A DNA stretch of 64,000 nucleotides from Pseudanabaena sp. PCC 7367 (lineage in GTDB: Bacteria > Cyanobacteriota > Cyanobacteriia > Pseudanabaenales > Pseudanabaenaceae): the NCBI RefSeq assembly GCF_000317065.1, contig NC_019701.1:2385001-2449000 (forward strand), written 5' to 3'. The number at the start of each line of letters is the position of its first letter. The first letter of the stretch is position 1. Under the pieces are notes generated by a model. It searched no databases and was not told the origin of the DNA. It worked only from the letters and a program-made list of their open reading frames with translations. The translations under genes were made by a program, and so were the position numbers. This document shows, in pieces, positions 7,299-16,135 of this stretch.

Positions 7299-7541
7299 GC
7301 TCTGTGATTGGTGTTTAGGTGCAGCTATATACAGAACACCCCACACCAAAACCACAAAGAGATTTAAGTGTAGGGCATTCTTGGGTGGGACACACCCCCC
7401 TCTAATTACCCAGGCGACTGAAATTCTGGGCAATTAGATCAATTCTACAATGCCCAATTTGAGTGCGTATGTAACTACTTGCGTATTATTCATCGTCTGT
7501 AGGCTGATTTTGCATAGAGAGAGAGTAAGTTAAGTTATCCC

Positions 7542-8069
7542 TTATCTCCGCCGTCTTGCCTCTGTGCTATTGGCAAGCTCCCTTCTCACGCCTGACAGAG
7601 TGCCACCATTTACTAAATATTCTTGATAGGTGCGAATGCCATTATAATCGGCTTCCCGACCCAGAATATCCCAGTAGGCACGTTGAATGTCGCCCACTCC
7701 CTCCTGGGAATATGCCAATTGATGGCGTACCCAACTAATATCCCTACCGCGCTCTAGCTCTCGCAAATAAGTATTCACGCCGCCATAGTCGGCATCACGG
7801 CCAAAAATATCTCGATAGGCTTGATTGACCTGCTGCTGCATCCGATTGCGATCGAAGTTGCGATTGACATTGCCGTTGTAATTATTGTGGTGCTCCCGAT
7901 AATTGTTATGGTCACGATGGGCTTCGTTACGCCAGGCATGGTTAGCATCATGACAATACATGCGGCCATTTTGCCACCAGCAATTAGTCTCAGCCTGTGC
8001 CACTTCCGCCACGCCGATCGCCATCATTGAAGTTGCGATCGCCACTAAGCCTATTCTTAGATATTTCAT
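7542..8069 (-). CDS. Small secreted protein with two DUF4214-like repeats
   Basis: 175 residues. Residues 1-26 are a clear Sec signal peptide ending AQAE. Residues 27-80 are rich in Trp, Asn and His (CWWQNGRMYC, then YREHHNNYNGN), probably exposed or metal-binding. Residues about 83-170 hold two copies of a short helical repeat: AYRDIFGRDADYGGVNTY and AYWDILGREADYNGIRTY. This pattern matches the DUF4214 family, found in bacterial surface and S-layer-associated proteins. The product is expected in the periplasm or outside the cell. No operon partner is visible. The link to DUF4214 is from the repeat pattern only. Confidence 0.68.
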   Translation of the reverse strand: MKYLRIGLVAIATSMMAIGVAEVAQAETNCWWQNGRMYCHDANHAWRNEAHRDHNNYREHHNNYNGNVNRNFDRNRMQQQVNQAYRDIFGRDADYGGVNTYLRELERGRDISWVRHQLAYSQEGVGDIQRAYWDILGREADYNGIRTYQEYLVNGGTLSGVRRELANSTEARRRR

Positions 8070-8201
8070 TCAATAAACCTCTTTCATGAAATAGATGCTT
8101 CAATCTGGCCTTAAGCCAAGGCCATAAAGTCTGTAAAGAATTGGCTGTCACTATATAGTAATGCTTTATATATTAGGCTAGAAAAGTAAAATTCCTGATA
8201 G

Positions 8202-8402
8202 TGACCCTGTCTCGAAAAAGTTAAAAATACAGGAGGATGTCCAAATGACAAAAAAACACGCCAGCTATTTATAGCCGAGCAAAAAGCTGAAGCAGTAGCG
8301 ATCGTAAAAAGCTTAGGTAATCTAATCAGCCAGGTGGCAAAAGAAATGGGTTTGAGTTGCGGGAGCAAGCTGTTGCGCATCAGGTTTATGCGTAACTTCT
8401 AG
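8202..8402 (+). pseudogene. Remnant of an IS3-family transposase orfA
   Basis: A ribosome site (AGGAGG) precedes an ATG at 8245 that opens MTKK and then hits a stop within nine codons. Removing one base shift in the A-run at 8250-8256 gives TRQLFIAEQKAEAVAIVKSLG, then LISQVAKEMGLS, ending at 8402. This is the helix-turn-helix start of IS3/IS911-type OrfA (usual consensus MTKKTRR, then EQKAEAV). A run of eight As instead of seven would restore the frame, so a one-base deletion is likely, followed by loss of the rest of the element. TGACCCTGTCTCG at about 8202 may be the old left terminal repeat. It lies just outside the nitrogen island. No right end or orfB is present. Confidence 0.7.
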
Positions 8403-8527
8403 CTTACCAATACCGACTTTTAAACAGCATTCTCTTTTACTGCCAGGTTAATCATCGAGGCTATATATGCTAGTTTCTTCTCTACTTGCAACAGCGCACT
8501 TATGCAATTAGCAAACTTCATGAGTTC

Positions 8528-9205
8528 TCAAATGCTCTCTAGAAGCATATTTGAAGTTGCAACTGCACCAAAAACTCCTCCCTGCATTTTTATCATACTC
8601 AAGGCGGCAAGATAGTTTTGATAGTCGGTAGCACCCGTGCAATCGGCAAGTACAAGGCATTCATAGCCGCGATCGTTGGCTTCCCGCATCGTGGTATGCA
8701 CACAGACATCGGTAGTAATACCAGTCAAAATCAGATTCTGAATCCCTTTGCCCCTCAGCAACAAATCTAAGTCCGTTGCATAGAAAGCCCCTTTGCCAGG
8801 TTTATCAACGATGGTCTCGCCGAATAAGGGTGCCAATTCAGGAATAATTTCCCAACCAGGCTCACCCCGCACTAAGATTTTGCCGCAAGGCCCTTGATCA
8901 CCAATCCCTGCGCCAATTTGACGACTCCGCCATCGTTTATTAGCTGGTAGATCGGACAAATCCGGTCGATGTCCTTCGCGGGTGTGAATAATATAGAACC
9001 CCTTCTGGCGCATAGCTTCAAGCACTTGCTTAATCGGCTCCAAAGGGGCTCTCGTTAGGGATAGATCATAGCCCATTTTATCCACATAGCCACCGACCCC
9101 GCAGAAGTCAGTCTGCATATCAATGATGATCAAGGCGGTGTTATCGGGGCGCAGATCGCCATTGTATGGATATTTATAGGGGTCTGAGTTGATGTATGTA
9201 GCCAT
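8528..9205 (-). CDS. biuH: Biuret-hydrolase-like cysteine hydrolase (isochorismatase superfamily)
   Basis: 225 residues from the ATG at 9205. An alternative in-frame ATG at 9235, inside a hexamer repeat coding MDMDMDMD, would add ten. The catalytic set of the cysteine-hydrolase superfamily is visible: Asp33 in DMQTDF, a Lys in DKPGKGAF and nucleophile Cys168 in [16 protein letters not shown]. The stretches [20 protein letters not shown]-like (about 73-92) and [12 protein letters not shown], as I remember the family, match biuret amidohydrolases rather than isochorismatase or nicotinamidase. Predicted reaction: biuret + water to allophanate + ammonia, in the cytoplasm. It follows formamidase on the same strand by about 10-40 bp. 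The product allophanate would be consumed by the split allophanate hydrolase at 14.1-16.0 kb. Ureidoacrylate hydrolase (RutB type) is the main alternative. Confidence 0.75.
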
Positions 9206-9212
9206 TTGGGTA

Positions 9213-9239
9213 TCCATATCCATATCCATATCCATGTAT
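9213..9239. repeat. Hexamer tandem repeat at the start of the biuret-hydrolase gene
   Basis: About four copies of CATATC (TATCCA in other phase). On the minus strand they encode Met-Asp-Met-Asp repeats, giving several in-frame ATGs in the 10-40 bp gap after the formamidase stop. Slippage here could change N-terminal length or translational coupling. Confidence 0.7.
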
Positions 9240-9245
9240 CCACAG

Positions 9246-10265
9246 CTAAGCCTTGACTGCTTCGGAGATTTCTTCGCCAGCATAGAGGCGATCGGGGACT
9301 GGGAAACCACAGGAAGTACCATCTGTATAAACCACTTCTTCTTCCCAGGGCAATCGATAGTTGCCATCGACTAAGTCTTTCATATAGGTATATGGACAGT
9401 CCTGGGCACCACCTTTCACCGCCACATAGCCACGGTGGCCAAACTGGTAAATATTATTTTCCACTGACCAATGCTGACGGGCTTCTCTGACTAGATCGGG
9501 ACGCACTTCGGCGGTAATGATTTCATCGGGGCGATTGCCACCGGTTACCAACGGCGTACCATCATAGTTAATAATCATGCCTTCGCCCATCGAGTCAAAG
9601 GTGCCATCACTACCGCACATACAAACTGAGGCAGTATAAATTAGGTTGCAGAAAGCATTAGCCTGGTTGGTGATTTGCCAAGAATGGCGGATTGGCGCAG
9701 TATATCCCGCTGTGCGAATCATGATTTCGGCTCCTTTATAGGCACATTCACGCGCCATTTCGGGGAACATGCCATCATGGCAAATAATTAGAGCTAGCTT
9801 GCTGCCGTTGGGTCCTTCACAGACAGGGATACCAATGTTGCCAGGCTCCCAGGGCTCAACCGGAACCCAAGGATGCAGCTTACGATAATACAGCTTGATC
9901 TCGCCTTGGTTATCAATAATTAGACCACTGTTGTAGGGGTTGCCTTTGGGGTTATATTCCATGATCGAAAAGCAACCCCAGATGTCATTCTCCTGACAGG
10001 CTATCTTGAATGCCTCCACCTCTGGCCCATCCAATCGACACATGATTTCTGGATTGGTATCCATCGAAAGACCATGCAAGGAGTATTCTGGGAAAACTAC
10101 CAGATCCATGGTGGGCAGGTTACGTCGAGCTTTTGCCACCATGTCGCAGATCTGTTTAGTTTGGGCAGAAAGATCGGCTGGGGTGACAACATTGGGTAGT
10201 TGCAATTGCACCATACCCAGCACCACACCATTAGGAGCTTTATTTAATCCACCAAGTCCACTCAT
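9246..10265 (-). CDS. amiF: Formamidase (AmiF-type, nitrilase superfamily)
   Basis: 339 residues, the usual length for AmiF. The nitrilase-superfamily triad is in place: Glu60 (VVFPEYS), Lys129 (YYRKLHPW) and Cys162 ([10 protein letters not shown]). The segments [17 protein letters not shown] and [17 protein letters not shown], together with the C-terminal [18 protein letters not shown], fit formamidase (formamide to formate + ammonia) better than the longer-chain aliphatic amidase AmiE, from recall of both families. It is cytoplasmic. It sits third in the run nitrile hydratase beta, alpha, formamidase, biuret hydrolase, 141 bp after the alpha subunit gene. The pairing suggests that nitrile hydratase makes an amide, possibly formamide from HCN, that this enzyme hydrolyses. 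Activity on other short amides cannot be excluded. Confidence 0.87.
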
Positions 10266-10406
10266 TTTTATTATTCCCTGCTTAAACTTCTATTTACAGC
10301 AATTAACAGTCAAAAATAGCGAAACCGTTGTGAGCGTCTTGCGATCGCCCTATCTACTTAATTGTCTACCTGCCGATCCTTGGAAATATGCTGGATTGAA
10401 ATTCCG

Positions 10407-11117
10407 TTATGATTCATGATTTTTATTATTTTTACTTGGCTCTTCGGCAAAAGCAACACCAATCATGCTATCGCGGGTCACTAATTTAATCAGGTCTTCT
10501 TCTGCCCACCCATCAGTGTTTGGGGGGCGGTTGGGAATTACTAAATAGCGAGTATCCGCATTGCTATCCATCACTCTGATTTCAACTTCAGCAGGAACGA
10601 TCGTGCCGAATTCCTTTTCTAATACCCCACGCGGATCGATCACGACCCGATTGCGATAGGCCGTGCTCTTATACCAGGATGGGGGATGGTAGCCTAAGAT
10701 CGCTCTAGGATAACAGGAACATAAAGTACATACTACGACGTGATGAATATGTTCTGTATTCTCAACTACCTGGAGGTTTTTTATTTCCACCGTGTCGATA
10801 TCCAGTTCTCTGCAAGCTGCTTTCCCATCTACCAAAGCCCGGGCTTTGAACTCAGGATCTAGCCAGGCTCTTGCCACCAGCCGAGCGCCTAGCATGGGTG
10901 TTACCGAGTCTTCGCGCTCGATTTCCTTGCGGACTTCAGCGGCAGTAAAATAACCTTTTTGCTCTAAAATCCGTTCGATGGCGTGAGTTCTTTGCGCCCA
11001 ATAAGCCTCGTCATTATTGATAGGGGCGTGATCATGATCATGGTCATGTTCTGGCTCGTCAGGCACTTCGCTAGAATTAGCAAAAGGATATTTATTTTGA
11101 ACTTGAATATCTTCCAT
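10407..11117 (-). CDS. nthA: Nitrile hydratase alpha subunit, cobalt type
   Basis: 236 residues. The metal claw VCTLCSC lies at 129-135 (Cys130, Cys133, Ser134, Cys135). Thr before the second Cys marks the cobalt type; iron enzymes have VCSLCSC. The following YPRAILGYHPPSWYKS and VIDPRGVLEKEFG are standard alpha-subunit features. The two outer cysteines next to Ser are normally oxidised after translation. Residues 21-30 read EPEHDHDHDH, a His/Asp run that could collect metal. It catalyses R-CN + water to R-CO-NH2 together with the beta subunit encoded 99 bp upstream. Thiocyanate hydrolase gamma shares the claw, but the single-chain beta partner favours nitrile hydratase. No P14K or P47K activator gene is nearby. 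Confidence 0.9.
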   Translation of the reverse strand: MEDIQVQNKYPFANSSEVPDEPEHDHDHDHAPINNDEAYWAQRTHAIERILEQKGYFTAAEVRKEIEREDSVTPMLGARLVARAWLDPEFKARALVDGKAACRELDIDTVEIKNLQVVENTEHIHHVVVCTLCSCYPRAILGYHPPSWYKSTAYRNRVVIDPRGVLEKEFGTIVPAEVEIRVMDSNADTRYLVIPNRPPNTDGWAEEDLIKLVTRDSMIGVAFAEEPSKNNKNHES

Positions 11118-11216: not shown

Positions 11217-11915
11217 TTAATTGATTTTAGTAAGCCAATGTTCATATAATTCACTGCAAAGCGTATCTTTAGCATTAGCAGGCAAGCAAGCATCTCCCCA
11301 CAGATCCGCTAGCTCAAACCGCACCAGATATAACGGCATTACGGTAATCGGGTTGGCTAAATGGGCAACTTCTTCTGGATTCGGGTAGTTCCCTTGGATT
11401 TGAGCGATCGTGCCCTGTTTACCTAAGATATAGACTGGCGTACGGACATGTCCTGACTTTGGCAGTGATTCAACTTTCACCTTGTCTCCCACGTTGAATT
11501 TGAAGTTATTCTCATTGGGTGCAACTTTCTCAACTTTATAAGGAAAAGGAATTGGTGGTTGCTGGCCTAGAGCCGCTGGAACAGGAATAGAGCCTTGCGC
11601 TAATTCTTCTTCTGTAAAGAACCCCATCTCACAAAATAGCTTCTCGATCGCCAACAGTCGCCTTTCACCATAGGCAGGTAACCTCTGTTTAAGAGAATTT
11701 GGAATCCGTGCCGGCAACTGCCCAGTTGTAAACATACCATCAACTTCCTCAGCCGCCCTTCTAACCGGGTCCATACTGGGTAGTTGTCCCTTGGCAATCA
11801 TCAGATTATGCATAGAAATAATATGCTTCTCAAACCTGGCGATCGCAACTTCATCCGTATCTATAGATGATTTGTCTAGATGGCTATGGGGAACTCTTTG
11901 ATGTAATGAATCCAC
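11217..11915 (-). CDS. nthB: Nitrile hydratase beta subunit
   Basis: 232 residues, a normal length. The N-terminal helical half contains FEKHIISMHNLMIAKGQ and a segment on glutaryl-like helix packing around YGERRLLAIEKLF. The C-terminal half is the SH3-like barrel typical of the family: FNVGDKVKVE, then SGHVRTPVYILGKQGTIAQIQG, ending MPLYLVRFELADLWGD. The start is a GTG with no strong ribosome site. It is the first gene of the island's leftward operon, in the beta-then-alpha order usual for cobalt nitrile hydratases. It forms the hydratase heterodimer with the downstream product in the cytoplasm. A fused thiocyanate hydrolase alpha/beta pair is the alternative reading. Confidence 0.87.
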   Translation of the reverse strand: MDSLHQRVPHSHLDKSSIDTDEVAIARFEKHIISMHNLMIAKGQLPSMDPVRRAAEEVDGMFTTGQLPARIPNSLKQRLPAYGERRLLAIEKLFCEMGFFTEEELAQGSIPVPAALGQQPPIPFPYKVEKVAPNENNFKFNVGDKVKVESLPKSGHVRTPVYILGKQGTIAQIQGNYPNPEEVAHLANPITVMPLYLVRFELADLWGDACLPANAKDTLCSELYEHWLTKIN

Positions 11916-12410
11916 AACATTCTAATAGTTTTTAATAAAACAATTCGAGTAACAAGAATCACAATCTATTCAGTCTATAGTTCTGAATTCAACAGCTCAA
12001 TTAATAATTAGAATACTATTTCTGATTGAGTTGCTATTGATGTCCCAGCAGCAAAATATGAAATAAGCCAACCTCAAGCCAGACCTAATCCGTGTCAGCC
12101 TTGCAAGCCTTATCTTGCTAAATATTTTTGCTTTCCTATAGAAACTAATCAATAACTAATCAATACGTTGATGACTGATAGTAACTTGTAGTAATTCAGG
12201 CTAACTTTATTTACGGTTGTTAATTTAGCTTAGTTTGGTTATTGAATCTAATAGAAATGAAATCGCAAAGTTGAGGATCAAAATGTAGTGGTGGCTACAT
12301 CAAGTAAAAGTAATGGCACTTACTAATGTTTAAAGACGGAAGTCCCGAATCTGAAAGTTTCTCGCTTCATTGCCTGTTCTCACCCCATTAGCCCCACTTA
12401 ATCTCTTGCT
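11916..12410. other. Divergent intergenic region of the nitrogen island
   Basis: This 495-bp gap separates the leftward nitrile hydratase operon from the rightward binding-protein gene, so promoters for both should lie here. It contains a perfect NtcA box at 12284-12299. Weak one-mismatch relatives lie at 11949-11962 (GTA-N8-CAC), close to the nitrile hydratase start, and at 12181-12194 (GTA-N8-TAA). No gene is seen in it. Confidence 0.6.
12284..12299 (+). promoter_or_regulatory. NtcA binding site (TGTA-N8-TACA)
   Basis: The sequence is TGTA, eight bases, TACA, the full palindromic consensus for the cyanobacterial nitrogen regulator NtcA. About 22-25 bases further on, TACTAA/TAATGT (12321-12329) can serve as a -10 box, giving the spacing of a class II NtcA-activated promoter. 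The binding-protein gene starts at 12411, so the leader would be roughly 75 bases. This predicts induction under nitrogen limitation. Confidence 0.78.
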
Positions 12411-14003
12411 ATGGTTATTAAAAATAAAGGCTTGTTAGATTCCACTGCAACGGCAATTTTAGATCGCAATGCATGCCCTTGCGGCCAACCCCACTCAACC
12501 GCCGATCACTGGCAATTTGCTAACAGTATGCCAACGGACCCGGTGGATTTAACCGCTGATTTGGCGAAGATGTCGCTGATTAAGCCAGAAGCATTTTCCC
12601 TGGCCGATCGCATTACTGTGGCTGAAATGAGAGAGGCTCTGTTTTTTAAGCAGGCTGGACGTGGGAATAGTCGGCGCGAGAAACTATGCCGTGACTTGGC
12701 CGCTCAAGCTGGAGGATTGAGTAATGCTATGGCCGCAGCCTTTGGCCCCCAGGCAGGTATTTTCTTCGGCGATGTGATGCGTAAGAATCAGTTCACCCGG
12801 CGGCGCTTTCTCAGAAATGTGTCGATCGGCGCGGCTCTGGTGACTTTGGCCAGTTGTGGCAGTAATCCCGACACACCACCAGAGGCAACGGTAGATAGTT
12901 CCGCAGTTGATGGTTCAAATTTAGAGAAAACAACTTTAAGAGTTGGTTTTATTCCAATTACCTGCGCTACACCAATTTTGATGGCGGGGCCATTAGGGTT
13001 GTATGAAAAACATGGTTTAGAAGTTGAGCTAGTCAAGCTACCCAGTTGGGCGGCGGTGCGTGATGCGATGATTGCCGGGGAATTAGATGCATCCCACCTG
13101 ATTGCACCGATGCCAATCACAATGACACTGGGACTAGGTTCAGCTCCCTTTGATACCCGCACGGTGACCATTAGTAATTTGAATGGGAATGCGATTACGG
13201 TTGCCAATCGCCACAAAGAAACTGTCAAGGGTCCGGCAGATTTCAAGGGATTTAGAATTGCTTTACCATTCCCCCACTCAACCCATACTCTGCTTTTACG
13301 CTACTATTTGGCCACTGGTGGACTCAATCCCGATACCGATGTGCAGCTTGATGTGGTTCCTCCGGCTGATACCGTGGCTCAAATGGCGGTTGGTGAACTG
13401 GATGCGATGTTGATCGCTGAACCCTTTAACCAGCGCCTAGTTGCTGAGGGCGCGGGCTATATTCACATGCTAAGTAAAGAGATTTGGCCAGGGCATCCTT
13501 GCTGCATTCTTAGTGCCGGTCAGGAATGGATTGATACTAATCCCAATACCTTCGATGCGATGACAAAGGCAGTATTAGAGGCTTCTTATTTTGCGAAGGA
13601 TAAGAGTAATAGACCAGAGATTGCTCAGACCTTGGCTTCTAGACAATTCCTGAATCAGCCCGAAGATGTGCTTCAATCTATCTATACTGGTAAATATGAT
13701 GATGGGAATGGGAATACTCAAGATATTCCCGATCGCGTAGATTTTGATCCCTACCCTTGGAAAAGCTTTGCCTATTGGTTGACTACTCAGATGGTGCGCT
13801 GGGACTATGTACCAGGCGATCAGGCTGATTACAATGCAATAGGCGATCTTTACCTCACGGAAGTTGTCCAGAGATTGGGCGGTGAATTGGGATTAGATGT
13901 ACCTACGGACGAGCTTAGATCTGAGAATTTATTGTTTGATGCGTTTGATCCTAGCGATCCGGATGCTTATTTGAATGAGCAAATCGAAACCTATGGTGTT
14001 TAA
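12411..14003 (+). CDS. CmpA/NrtA-type ABC substrate-binding lipoprotein with N-terminal extension
   Basis: 530 residues. Residues 155-500 are the nitrate/bicarbonate/sulfonate-type periplasmic binding fold: TLRVGFIPITCATPILMAGPLG, then AALPFPHSTH-like and GELDAMLIAEPFNQR. Before it lies a Tat-lipoprotein signal, twin arginines in TRRRFLRN (129-136) and lipobox LASC with Cys149. About 120 residues precede the signal, with C-P-C-G and two His at 22-33 (possible metal site). The extension would stay in the cytoplasm unless translation begins at Met123. No permease or ATPase gene is near, so it must share a transporter encoded elsewhere or act as a sensor. Downstream of an NtcA box and inside the amide/nitrile island, its ligand is probably a small nitrogen compound (inference). 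Confidence 0.83.
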   Translation: MVIKNKGLLDSTATAILDRNACPCGQPHSTADHWQFANSMPTDPVDLTADLAKMSLIKPEAFSLADRITVAEMREALFFKQAGRGNSRREKLCRDLAAQAGGLSNAMAAAFGPQAGIFFGDVMRKNQFTRRRFLRNVSIGAALVTLASCGSNPDTPPEATVDSSAVDGSNLEKTTLRVGFIPITCATPILMAGPLGLYEKHGLEVELVKLPSWAAVRDAMIAGELDASHLIAPMPITMTLGLGSAPFDTRTVTISNLNGNAITVANRHKETVKGPADFKGFRIALPFPHSTHTLLLRYYLATGGLNPDTDVQLDVVPPADTVAQMAVGELDAMLIAEPFNQRLVAEGAGYIHMLSKEIWPGHPCCILSAGQEWIDTNPNTFDAMTKAVLEASYFAKDKSNRPEIAQTLASRQFLNQPEDVLQSIYTGKYDDGNGNTQDIPDRVDFDPYPWKSFAYWLTTQMVRWDYVPGDQADYNAIGDLYLTEVVQRLGGELGLDVPTDELRSENLLFDAFDPSDPDAYLNEQIETYGV

Positions 14004-14056: not shown

Positions 14057-14506
14057 CTAGCTATTACTAGCGCTTTTACTATCACTTAGATAACTGCGCC
14101 AACCGCCGCAGGCAGAAATATCGATCGCGGTTTTGATTCCTTCCGCCTCACAAATAAACCCTTTCACCTGTTTGCCCGATTCTAGGGTGATTGTGCCAAT
14201 CCCTAGTGGGGCTGGAATCAGGGCTACAAAAGAGCCAAAATTTACTAAAGGCATTTCCCATACCTCCACCTCGATCCCATGGCCAGTTTCCTGCTTGGGA
14301 TCGATTCTCATTAGACCTGGCTTAGGTAGCTTAGTGCCAGTTAGGGCATAAAGCTTGTATATCGGTGCAGTATGGGTTGCGGCAACCAGATGAGCCTGCC
14401 GATCGACTAGTTGATAGTTGAGCGGTTCGCCATCTAAGTGAGCCCCAACTACTGCCACTTCGATCATGGCTGCTGGATCTGGATCTTGCATTTGGCGATC
14501 GGGCAT
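14057..14506 (-). CDS. Allophanate hydrolase C-terminal domain as a stand-alone protein
   Basis: 149 residues. The sequence from residue 15 on (EVAVVGAHLDGEPLNYQL, TAPIYKLYAL, PKPGLMRI, IEVEVWEMP, FGSFVALIPAPLGIGT, then a closing GGWRSYL) is the family normally fused behind the amidase domain of allophanate hydrolase (AtzF/DUR1,2). In known fused enzymes this domain promotes decarboxylation of the N-carboxycarbamate left after deamination. Here it is a separate gene 75 bp after the amidase gene, same strand, same probable operon. Combined length with the amidase (626 residues) is close to a whole AtzF of about 600. The break falls in the linker, so both domains look intact. Confidence 0.85.
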   Translation of the reverse strand: MPDRQMQDPDPAAMIEVAVVGAHLDGEPLNYQLVDRQAHLVAATHTAPIYKLYALTGTKLPKPGLMRIDPKQETGHGIEVEVWEMPLVNFGSFVALIPAPLGIGTITLESGKQVKGFICEAEGIKTAIDISACGGWRSYLSDSKSASNS

Positions 14507-14581
14507 ATTTTTAGTTCCCCCTCAACTAGATTAATTAGAATGACTCTATTAACGACTTTATTTATATTTGTTATATTTGCA

Positions 14582-16015
14582 CTATTGGCTGACTTGGTGA
14601 TAGGTTATGGATGTGTTACCTAAAGGCAGATTGAGCTGTTGTTGGTATTTAGTACCCAGGCTAATCAGCAAGTTTTCATTAAACGCTGGCGCGATGAGAG
14701 TAATCCCAAACGGAAGATGATCGGTTCTGAATCCAGATGGAATAGCGATCGCGCAGAGGTCGAGTAGATTCACAAAATTAGTGTAGTAGCCCAGATTCGT
14801 ATTTAGCTGCAATGGCTCCTCATTTACCTGGCTGATTTGGTAGATAGTCGGTGTGGTTGGCACTAATAATAGATCCATCTTTTGCCATTCCGCCGCCGCC
14901 GATCGCTGATGGGACTTTAACTTATAGATCGATTCAAACACATCCACCGCTGTGTATTTATTCGCGCCAAGGATAATTTGGCTAGTTATTTCTAAGGTTT
15001 GGTCGGCGCTATGTTCAAAAAATGAGGCCAATGCTGCTAAACGCTCGGCGACCCAGGGGCCAGAATAGAGCAATTGGGCGGCATCATAAAATGGTTGATA
15101 GTCGATCTCTACTTGCTGTCCACCGATCGCTTCTAAATGGCTAATGCTGGTGGTGAACAGTTGCTGATATTCCCGATCGCCAAAGAATTCCAGCCAATCT
15201 TGAGTAGGGACACCAAACCGAAACCGAGATAATGATTGGGATGAGGATTTTGGTAATGCTTGTTGATTTGCTGGCAAAGGCCGATCGCGGCAGTAGATAT
15301 CTTGATGATCAAATCCCTGACATGCTGCTAATACCAGTTCTGCATCATTGCAGCTCAACGCAAAAATACTCACGCAATCGAGCGATCGACAGGCAGGCAC
15401 TACGCCTCGATTACTAATCAGACCGCGACTAGGCTTGAGACCCACAATGTTATTAAATGCGGCCGGTACTCTGCCCGACCCGGCTGTATCCGTTCCCAAA
15501 GCAAAACTAACTAGACCCGCTGACACCGCCACTGCCGAACCAGAACTAGAACCACCACTAATGTAGCGATCGTCAAAGGGATTTTGACAAACTCCATAGG
15601 GCGATCGCGTGCCTACTAAACCAGTGGCAAATTGATCTAAATTAGTTTTGCCGATTAACAAAGCACCAGCGGCTAGTAGTTTTTCCACTACCATTGCATC
15701 CTCAGTTGGCATATAACCAAATGCAGGGCAAGCAGCGGTGGTTAAAACACCGTTCGCATCAATATTATCCTTAAGCGCAAATGGAATCCCAAATAAGGGT
15801 AGGGATGGCATATCCTGGCGCATTGCCTCTAGCTGAGCTGCTGCCTGCAATACCTGCTGTTTGGGCAAAAGAGTAATCCAGATGGGATTATGCTCATGGG
15901 TGGCAATCCGTTCGTAGATCAGTTCCACGATCGCTGTTACAGATTGCCCTGAACGATAGGCCAGCAGCAGGGTATTAATATCCAGACTAATATTACTTAT
16001 GCCCTCTAAATCCAA
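14582..16015 (-). CDS. atzF: Allophanate hydrolase, amidase domain
   Basis: 477 residues of the amidase-signature family. The Ser-cisSer-Lys triad is complete: Lys82 (FALKDNID), Ser156 (GGSSSGS) and Ser180 (GTDTAGSGR). FGIPFALKDNID and the TAACPAFGYMP segment that follows match allophanate hydrolase amidase domains rather than GatA. It hydrolyses allophanate, releasing ammonia, with the second domain encoded by the next gene. Start is a TTG at 16015 without a clear ribosome site, so the first residues are uncertain. A near NtcA match (GTA-N8-TAT) lies at 16033-16046. It faces the binding-protein gene and supplies the last step for biuret made allophanate by the hydrolase at 8.5-9.2 kb. There is no urea carboxylase or cyanuric acid hydrolase gene in the window. 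Confidence 0.87.
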   Translation of the reverse strand: MDLEGISNISLDINTLLLAYRSGQSVTAIVELIYERIATHEHNPIWITLLPKQQVLQAAAQLEAMRQDMPSLPLFGIPFALKDNIDANGVLTTAACPAFGYMPTEDAMVVEKLLAAGALLIGKTNLDQFATGLVGTRSPYGVCQNPFDDRYISGGSSSGSAVAVSAGLVSFALGTDTAGSGRVPAAFNNIVGLKPSRGLISNRGVVPACRSLDCVSIFALSCNDAELVLAACQGFDHQDIYCRDRPLPANQQALPKSSSQSLSRFRFGVPTQDWLEFFGDREYQQLFTTSISHLEAIGGQQVEIDYQPFYDAAQLLYSGPWVAERLAALASFFEHSADQTLEITSQIILGANKYTAVDVFESIYKLKSHQRSAAAEWQKMDLLLVPTTPTIYQISQVNEEPLQLNTNLGYYTNFVNLLDLCAIAIPSGFRTDHLPFGITLIAPAFNENLLISLGTKYQQQLNLPLGNTSITYHQVSQ

Positions 16016-16135
16016 GTTAGCGAATTTATTTTGTACATTGATCTATTGTTCTAATCAGAGATCACAACGTCTTCAGATAAGAATTAAAGCCAAGTAAGCA
16101 GCTTCAAGCATAGCATCTCTTCATGGATAGGGAAG

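Follow-up and report, generated by a model that had tools for sequence, protein, structure and literature searches.

A candidate NtcA-activated promoter ahead of a CynA-like gene in a nitrile hydratase island of Pseudanabaena sp. PCC 7367

Gene content of the island

The window analysed here comprises 64,000 nucleotides of the genome of Pseudanabaena sp. PCC 7367 and harbors an island of genes for nitrile hydratase, a formamidase-type amidase, a biuret amidohydrolase, and allophanate hydrolase (Table 1), on which a literature search retrieved no publication. The gene for a CynA-like substrate-binding protein stands alone on its strand in this island, and the spacer in front of it (11916–12410, 495 bases) is, as originally predicted, the only divergent one of the island. 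Positions 12150–12410 are single-copy in the genome, which led us to discard an origin of the spacer from a repeat or mobile element.

Judged from its sequence, the product of 12411–14003 is a divergent CynA-like (cyanate-type) binding protein. It groups with CynA of cynABDS operons, separated from nrtA-like comparison proteins by a 100/100 split, and lies apart from the clade formed by the order's remaining CynA sequences. No permease, ATPase, or cyanase gene (cynB, cynD, cynS) lies beside it, and the protein was thus named CynA-like rather than assigned as CynA. Most binding-protein homologues in the order adjoin cynB, cynD, and cynS, and a search in the order for genes of the island next to these homologues found none. 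Since no relative with more than 58% identity was detected among 38 genomes of the order and 386 sampled from the phylum, there is no direct ortholog footprint for the box at 12284–12299 itself. In CynA-type proteins (window 12411–14003; L217–L243, L006–L029), about 125 residues, usually including a Cys-x(1-2)-CG-x2-His-like motif, precede a mid-protein Tat-like RRxFL signal, an odd arrangement with a domain N-terminal to an export signal; RRxFL was present in 37 of 38 of these proteins and the Cys/His motif in 32 of 38.

Some further observations concern the remaining genes. The longest reading frame for BiuH overlaps fmdA by 122 bases (9246–9367), and the conserved match mostly begins at residues 55–58, so that the real start of BiuH probably lies near 9200. 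In other cyanobacteria (loci L110, L122, L147, and others), biuH mostly belongs to an operon for a bmp/nup-type transporter that also contains a second isochorismatase gene and sometimes fmdA; fmdA and biuH of the window are about 70–87% identical to those of such operons, but lack that transporter. The same genome carries a second nitrile hydratase locus (L072, 9258–10704) with CobW-type and FGE-sulfatase-type neighbours.

Table 1. Genes and candidate regulatory sites of the island (positions refer to the 64-kb window)
Feature	Position	Strand	Remarks
Nitrile hydratase alpha, formamidase-type amidase (FmdA), biuret amidohydrolase (BiuH)	8528–11117	-	
Nitrile hydratase beta-like gene	11217–11915	-	Divergent neighbour of the binding-protein gene
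Marginal promoter candidate toward nitrile hydratase beta	11919–11962	-	GTGATTCTTGTTAC (11962–11949), 24 nt, TAGAAT (11924–11919)
NtcA-type box TGTAGTGGTGGCTACA	12284–12299	+	Top matrix rank in 64 kb; footprint at cynA homologues
Second GTAN8TAC core GTAATGGCACTTAC	12310–12323		Overlaps the plus-strand -10; missed by the original prediction
Probable -10 hexamer ACTAAT	12322–12327	+	23 nt after the box; best hexamer of the window in register
Originally predicted -10 hexamer TAATGT (TAN3T)	12324–12329	+	25 nt after the box; less likely
CynA-like substrate-binding protein gene	12411–14003	+	530 aa; NMT1_2 domain; mid-protein Tat-like signal
Allophanate hydrolase, two genes	14057–16015	-	C-terminal domain 14057–14506, amidase part 14582–16015
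GTACATTGATCTAT	16033–16046		Near allophanate hydrolase; rejected as a site

The NtcA-type box and other sites around the spacer

Rechecking the coordinates confirmed that TGTAGTGGTGGCTACA matches the full palindrome TGTAN8TACA at 12284–12299 on the plus strand, with an exact GTAN8TAC core (12285–12298) and both the flanking T and A. For scoring, a 14-mer NtcA matrix was built from the top Anabaena ChIP sites in Table 2 of Picossi 2014 (PMC3898017), and with this matrix the site at 12285 scored 12.3, which is rank 1 in the 64-kb window. GTAN8TAC cores as such are not enriched across the window (8 versus 6.0 expected). Dinucleotide shuffling of the 495-base spacer gave P = 0.012 for TGTAN8TACA, 0.014 for a top matrix score equal to or above the observed one, and 0.004 for at least two GTAN8TAC cores. 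By itself, TGTAGTGGTGGCTACA is modest evidence, being only moderately improbable at about 1% per spacer of such size. Its interior, GTGGTGGC, lacks the T/C at positions 4–5 and the A at positions 10–11 that have been described for the box interior (PMC3898017), and a general sigma-70 scan gave no promoter match near the box.

A -10 box had been proposed 22–25 bases downstream. TAATGT, which has the TAN3T form, does exist at 25 nt, but it is probably two bases off register, and it is the less likely -10 because the spacing of 25 carries no -10 signal in related promoters. The better candidate is ACTAAT at 23 nt, a weak hexamer (4/6 matches) of the xxTAAT form that is common in related cynA promoters; it is comparable to TCTAAT at 22 nt in the strain's own cynA paralogue and in genome G034. 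With this hexamer, transcription is predicted to start near 12333, and the 5' leader would comprise about 78 nt.

Three other sites were evaluated. The second core, at 12310–12323, reached a matrix score of 5.7 (rank 80 in the window) and, read on the minus strand toward nitrile hydratase, lies exactly 22 nt from TACATT (12287–12282); it could act in repression, serve as a promoter element for the nitrile hydratase genes, or be due to chance, the last of which is probably to be favoured. The first of two weaker matches named in the original prediction, 11949–11962 (GTAACAAGAATCAC), has one mismatch in the core and is marginal (matrix score 7.8, rank 31 in the window); the hexamer TAGAAT associated with it has 5/6 matches. 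If this hexamer were used, GTG 11915 would be an unlikely start for nitrile hydratase beta, and the next in-frame start is ATG 11813. The other weaker match, 16033–16046, turned out to be background, with a matrix score of -1.0, rank 1213 in the window, and no -10 in register.

Palindromes upstream of cynA homologues and elsewhere in the genome

In the 400 bp preceding the start of cynA homologues, GTAN8TAC occurred in 14 of 19 cases in the order, where many genomes belong to one genus and are not independent, and in 13 of 27 in the phylum, with start codons chosen by rule; other spacer lengths (2–7 and 9–17) gave 0–3 and 0–4 cases, respectively. The sites extend to four further genera of the order (g1, g4, g5, and g7) and to the phylum set. 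Among 25 related promoters, -10-like hexamers with at least 5/6 matches were found 11 times at 22–23 nt and at none of the remaining distances between 16 and 28 nt. Across the sampled cyanobacteria, cynA-type genes repeatedly have an upstream NtcA box at a fixed distance from the -10.

The strain's own cynA-cynA-permease-ATPase-cyanase locus lies elsewhere in the genome, and its cynA paralogue is preceded by TGTAGCTAACTATACA with TCTAAT at 22 nt. At this locus (L050), tandem cynA genes (7326–8966 and 9468–11090) are located ahead of the permease, ATPase, and cyanase genes, and the NtcA-type palindrome sits between both cynA genes, 53 bp before the second and not before the first.

Genome-wide counts, which rest on pattern searches and retrieved stretches, revealed TGTAN8TACA 38 times in the 4.89-Mb genome (about one per 129 kb) versus 60 for a reversed-pattern control, and matches combining the box with canonical spacing numbered 42 versus 86 in the control, so that neither is enriched. 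Among the other perfect palindromes, those outside long reading frames include sites before ntcA, glnA (two), a LysR gene that we infer to be ntcB, and the strain's cyanate operon; one of the glnA palindromes has TAACAT, and that of the LysR gene TAGCTT, 22 nt downstream. Perfect palindromes also lie inside genes and before unrelated genes, e.g., for phosphoglucose isomerase and a glycosyltransferase, and a palindrome by itself is therefore no proof. NtcA is encoded at C2:1323315–1323893 (381 bits against a cut-off of 245), and three further, weaker CRP-family matches were detected in the genome. When biuH operons from other cyanobacteria, mostly of the bmp/nup-type transporter-biuH-second isochorismatase kind, were searched for an NtcA footprint, no clear support emerged, with an upstream core in 3 of 10 and none with TAN3T in register.

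Interpretation and comparison with known systems

Taken together, we consider it likely that an NtcA-activated promoter, composed of the box at 12284–12299 and ACTAAT as -10, drives the CynA-like gene under nitrogen limitation. This part of the original prediction is well supported by the matrix rank, by the palindromes at NtcA targets of the same genome and, above all, by the footprint at cynA homologues; NtcA binding, the transcription start, and induction by nitrogen limitation are deduced from sequence comparison. Under nitrogen limitation, 2-oxoglutarate would rise and an NtcA dimer would bind TGTAGTGGTGGCTACA, centred about 41.5 bases before the start near 12333, where it would recruit RNA polymerase to ACTAAT and substitute for a -35 box. 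The binding protein, for which the island provides neither permease nor ATPase, may then cooperate with those encoded by the strain's cynABDS operon. In Synechococcus elongatus, nitrogen starvation up-regulates cynDBAS (PMC4973221).

That the palindrome is a chance match, with the binding-protein gene using another promoter and NtcA not being involved, appears unlikely. A probability of about 1% per spacer with many spacers open to inspection and a genome-wide count without excess over the control would fit this reading, but the box precedes a cynA-type gene, a class in which boxes are enriched in two genome sets and followed by a -10 in register. Still less credible is binding of another CRP-family regulator (SyCRP1-like) to the box: CRP-type sites are related palindromes and the three weaker CRP-family matches could provide such a protein, but CRP half-sites are GTGA/TCAC, while both half-sites of TGTAGTGGTGGCTACA are GTA/TAC, the NtcA-type core, and we regard this as very improbable.

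An extension of the preferred promoter model, which we hold to be doubtful although less so than a chance match, is a two-way control region, in which the 12285 box would serve the binding protein and the site at 12310 (minus strand) or 11949 the nitrile hydratase-formamidase-BiuH genes, so that the island would be co-induced. It is consistent with the presence of two cores within the 495-base spacer (P = 0.004 by shuffling), the canonical 22-nt spacing of TACATT from the 12310 core, and TAGAAT at 24 nt from the 11949 site. Furthermore, perfect palindromes occur at related genes of two other cyanobacteria: that of G042, followed by TACGGT at 22 nt, lies ahead of nitrile hydratase beta, and that of G201, followed by TACTCT at 22 nt, lies ahead of ABC genes adjoining isochorismatase-family (biuH-like) and nitrile hydratase genes; with four other genomes inspected, these two cases are anecdotal, but they make NtcA control of the whole island possible. 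On the other hand, the 12310 box scores poorly (5.7, rank 80) and overlaps the opposite -10, which would make the promoters mutually exclusive, canonical-spacing matches remain below the control genome-wide (42 versus 86), and the search at the strain's second nitrile hydratase locus (L072 9258–10704) yielded no suitable NtcA site. A variant with two interleaved, opposite-facing NtcA promoters, each box lying over the other's -10 and the NtcA level selecting between the binding protein and the nitrile hydratase-formamidase-biuret enzymes, seems quite remote. The original proposal, in which the box places the entire island under the control of nitrogen starvation, went beyond the evidence, as the binding-protein gene has no companion on its strand, the 16033 match is background, and the 11949 match is marginal. 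The NtcA-activated promoter preferred here would connect nitrogen starvation, in a way open to experiment, with an unusual gene cluster whose products could liberate ammonia from nitriles, formamide, and biuret.

Compared to class-II NtcA-activated promoters, such as those of glnA, nirA, ntcB, and urtA of cyanobacteria (PMC3898017), the putative promoter shares the GTAN8TAC box, a probable -10 located 22–23 nt downstream, and a box centre near -41.5 of the predicted start; it differs in its -10 of the xxTAAT instead of the TAN3T form and in the second core overlapping this -10. With the promoters of cynABDS operons, it has the downstream gene family and the architecture of box and -10 in common, whereas the gene in the window stands alone without permease, ATPase, and cyanase genes and is found beside nitrile hydratase, formamidase, biuH, and allophanate hydrolase genes. 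As a regulatory switch, the promoter belongs to a known kind, and the same kind precedes many relatives in other cyanobacteria.
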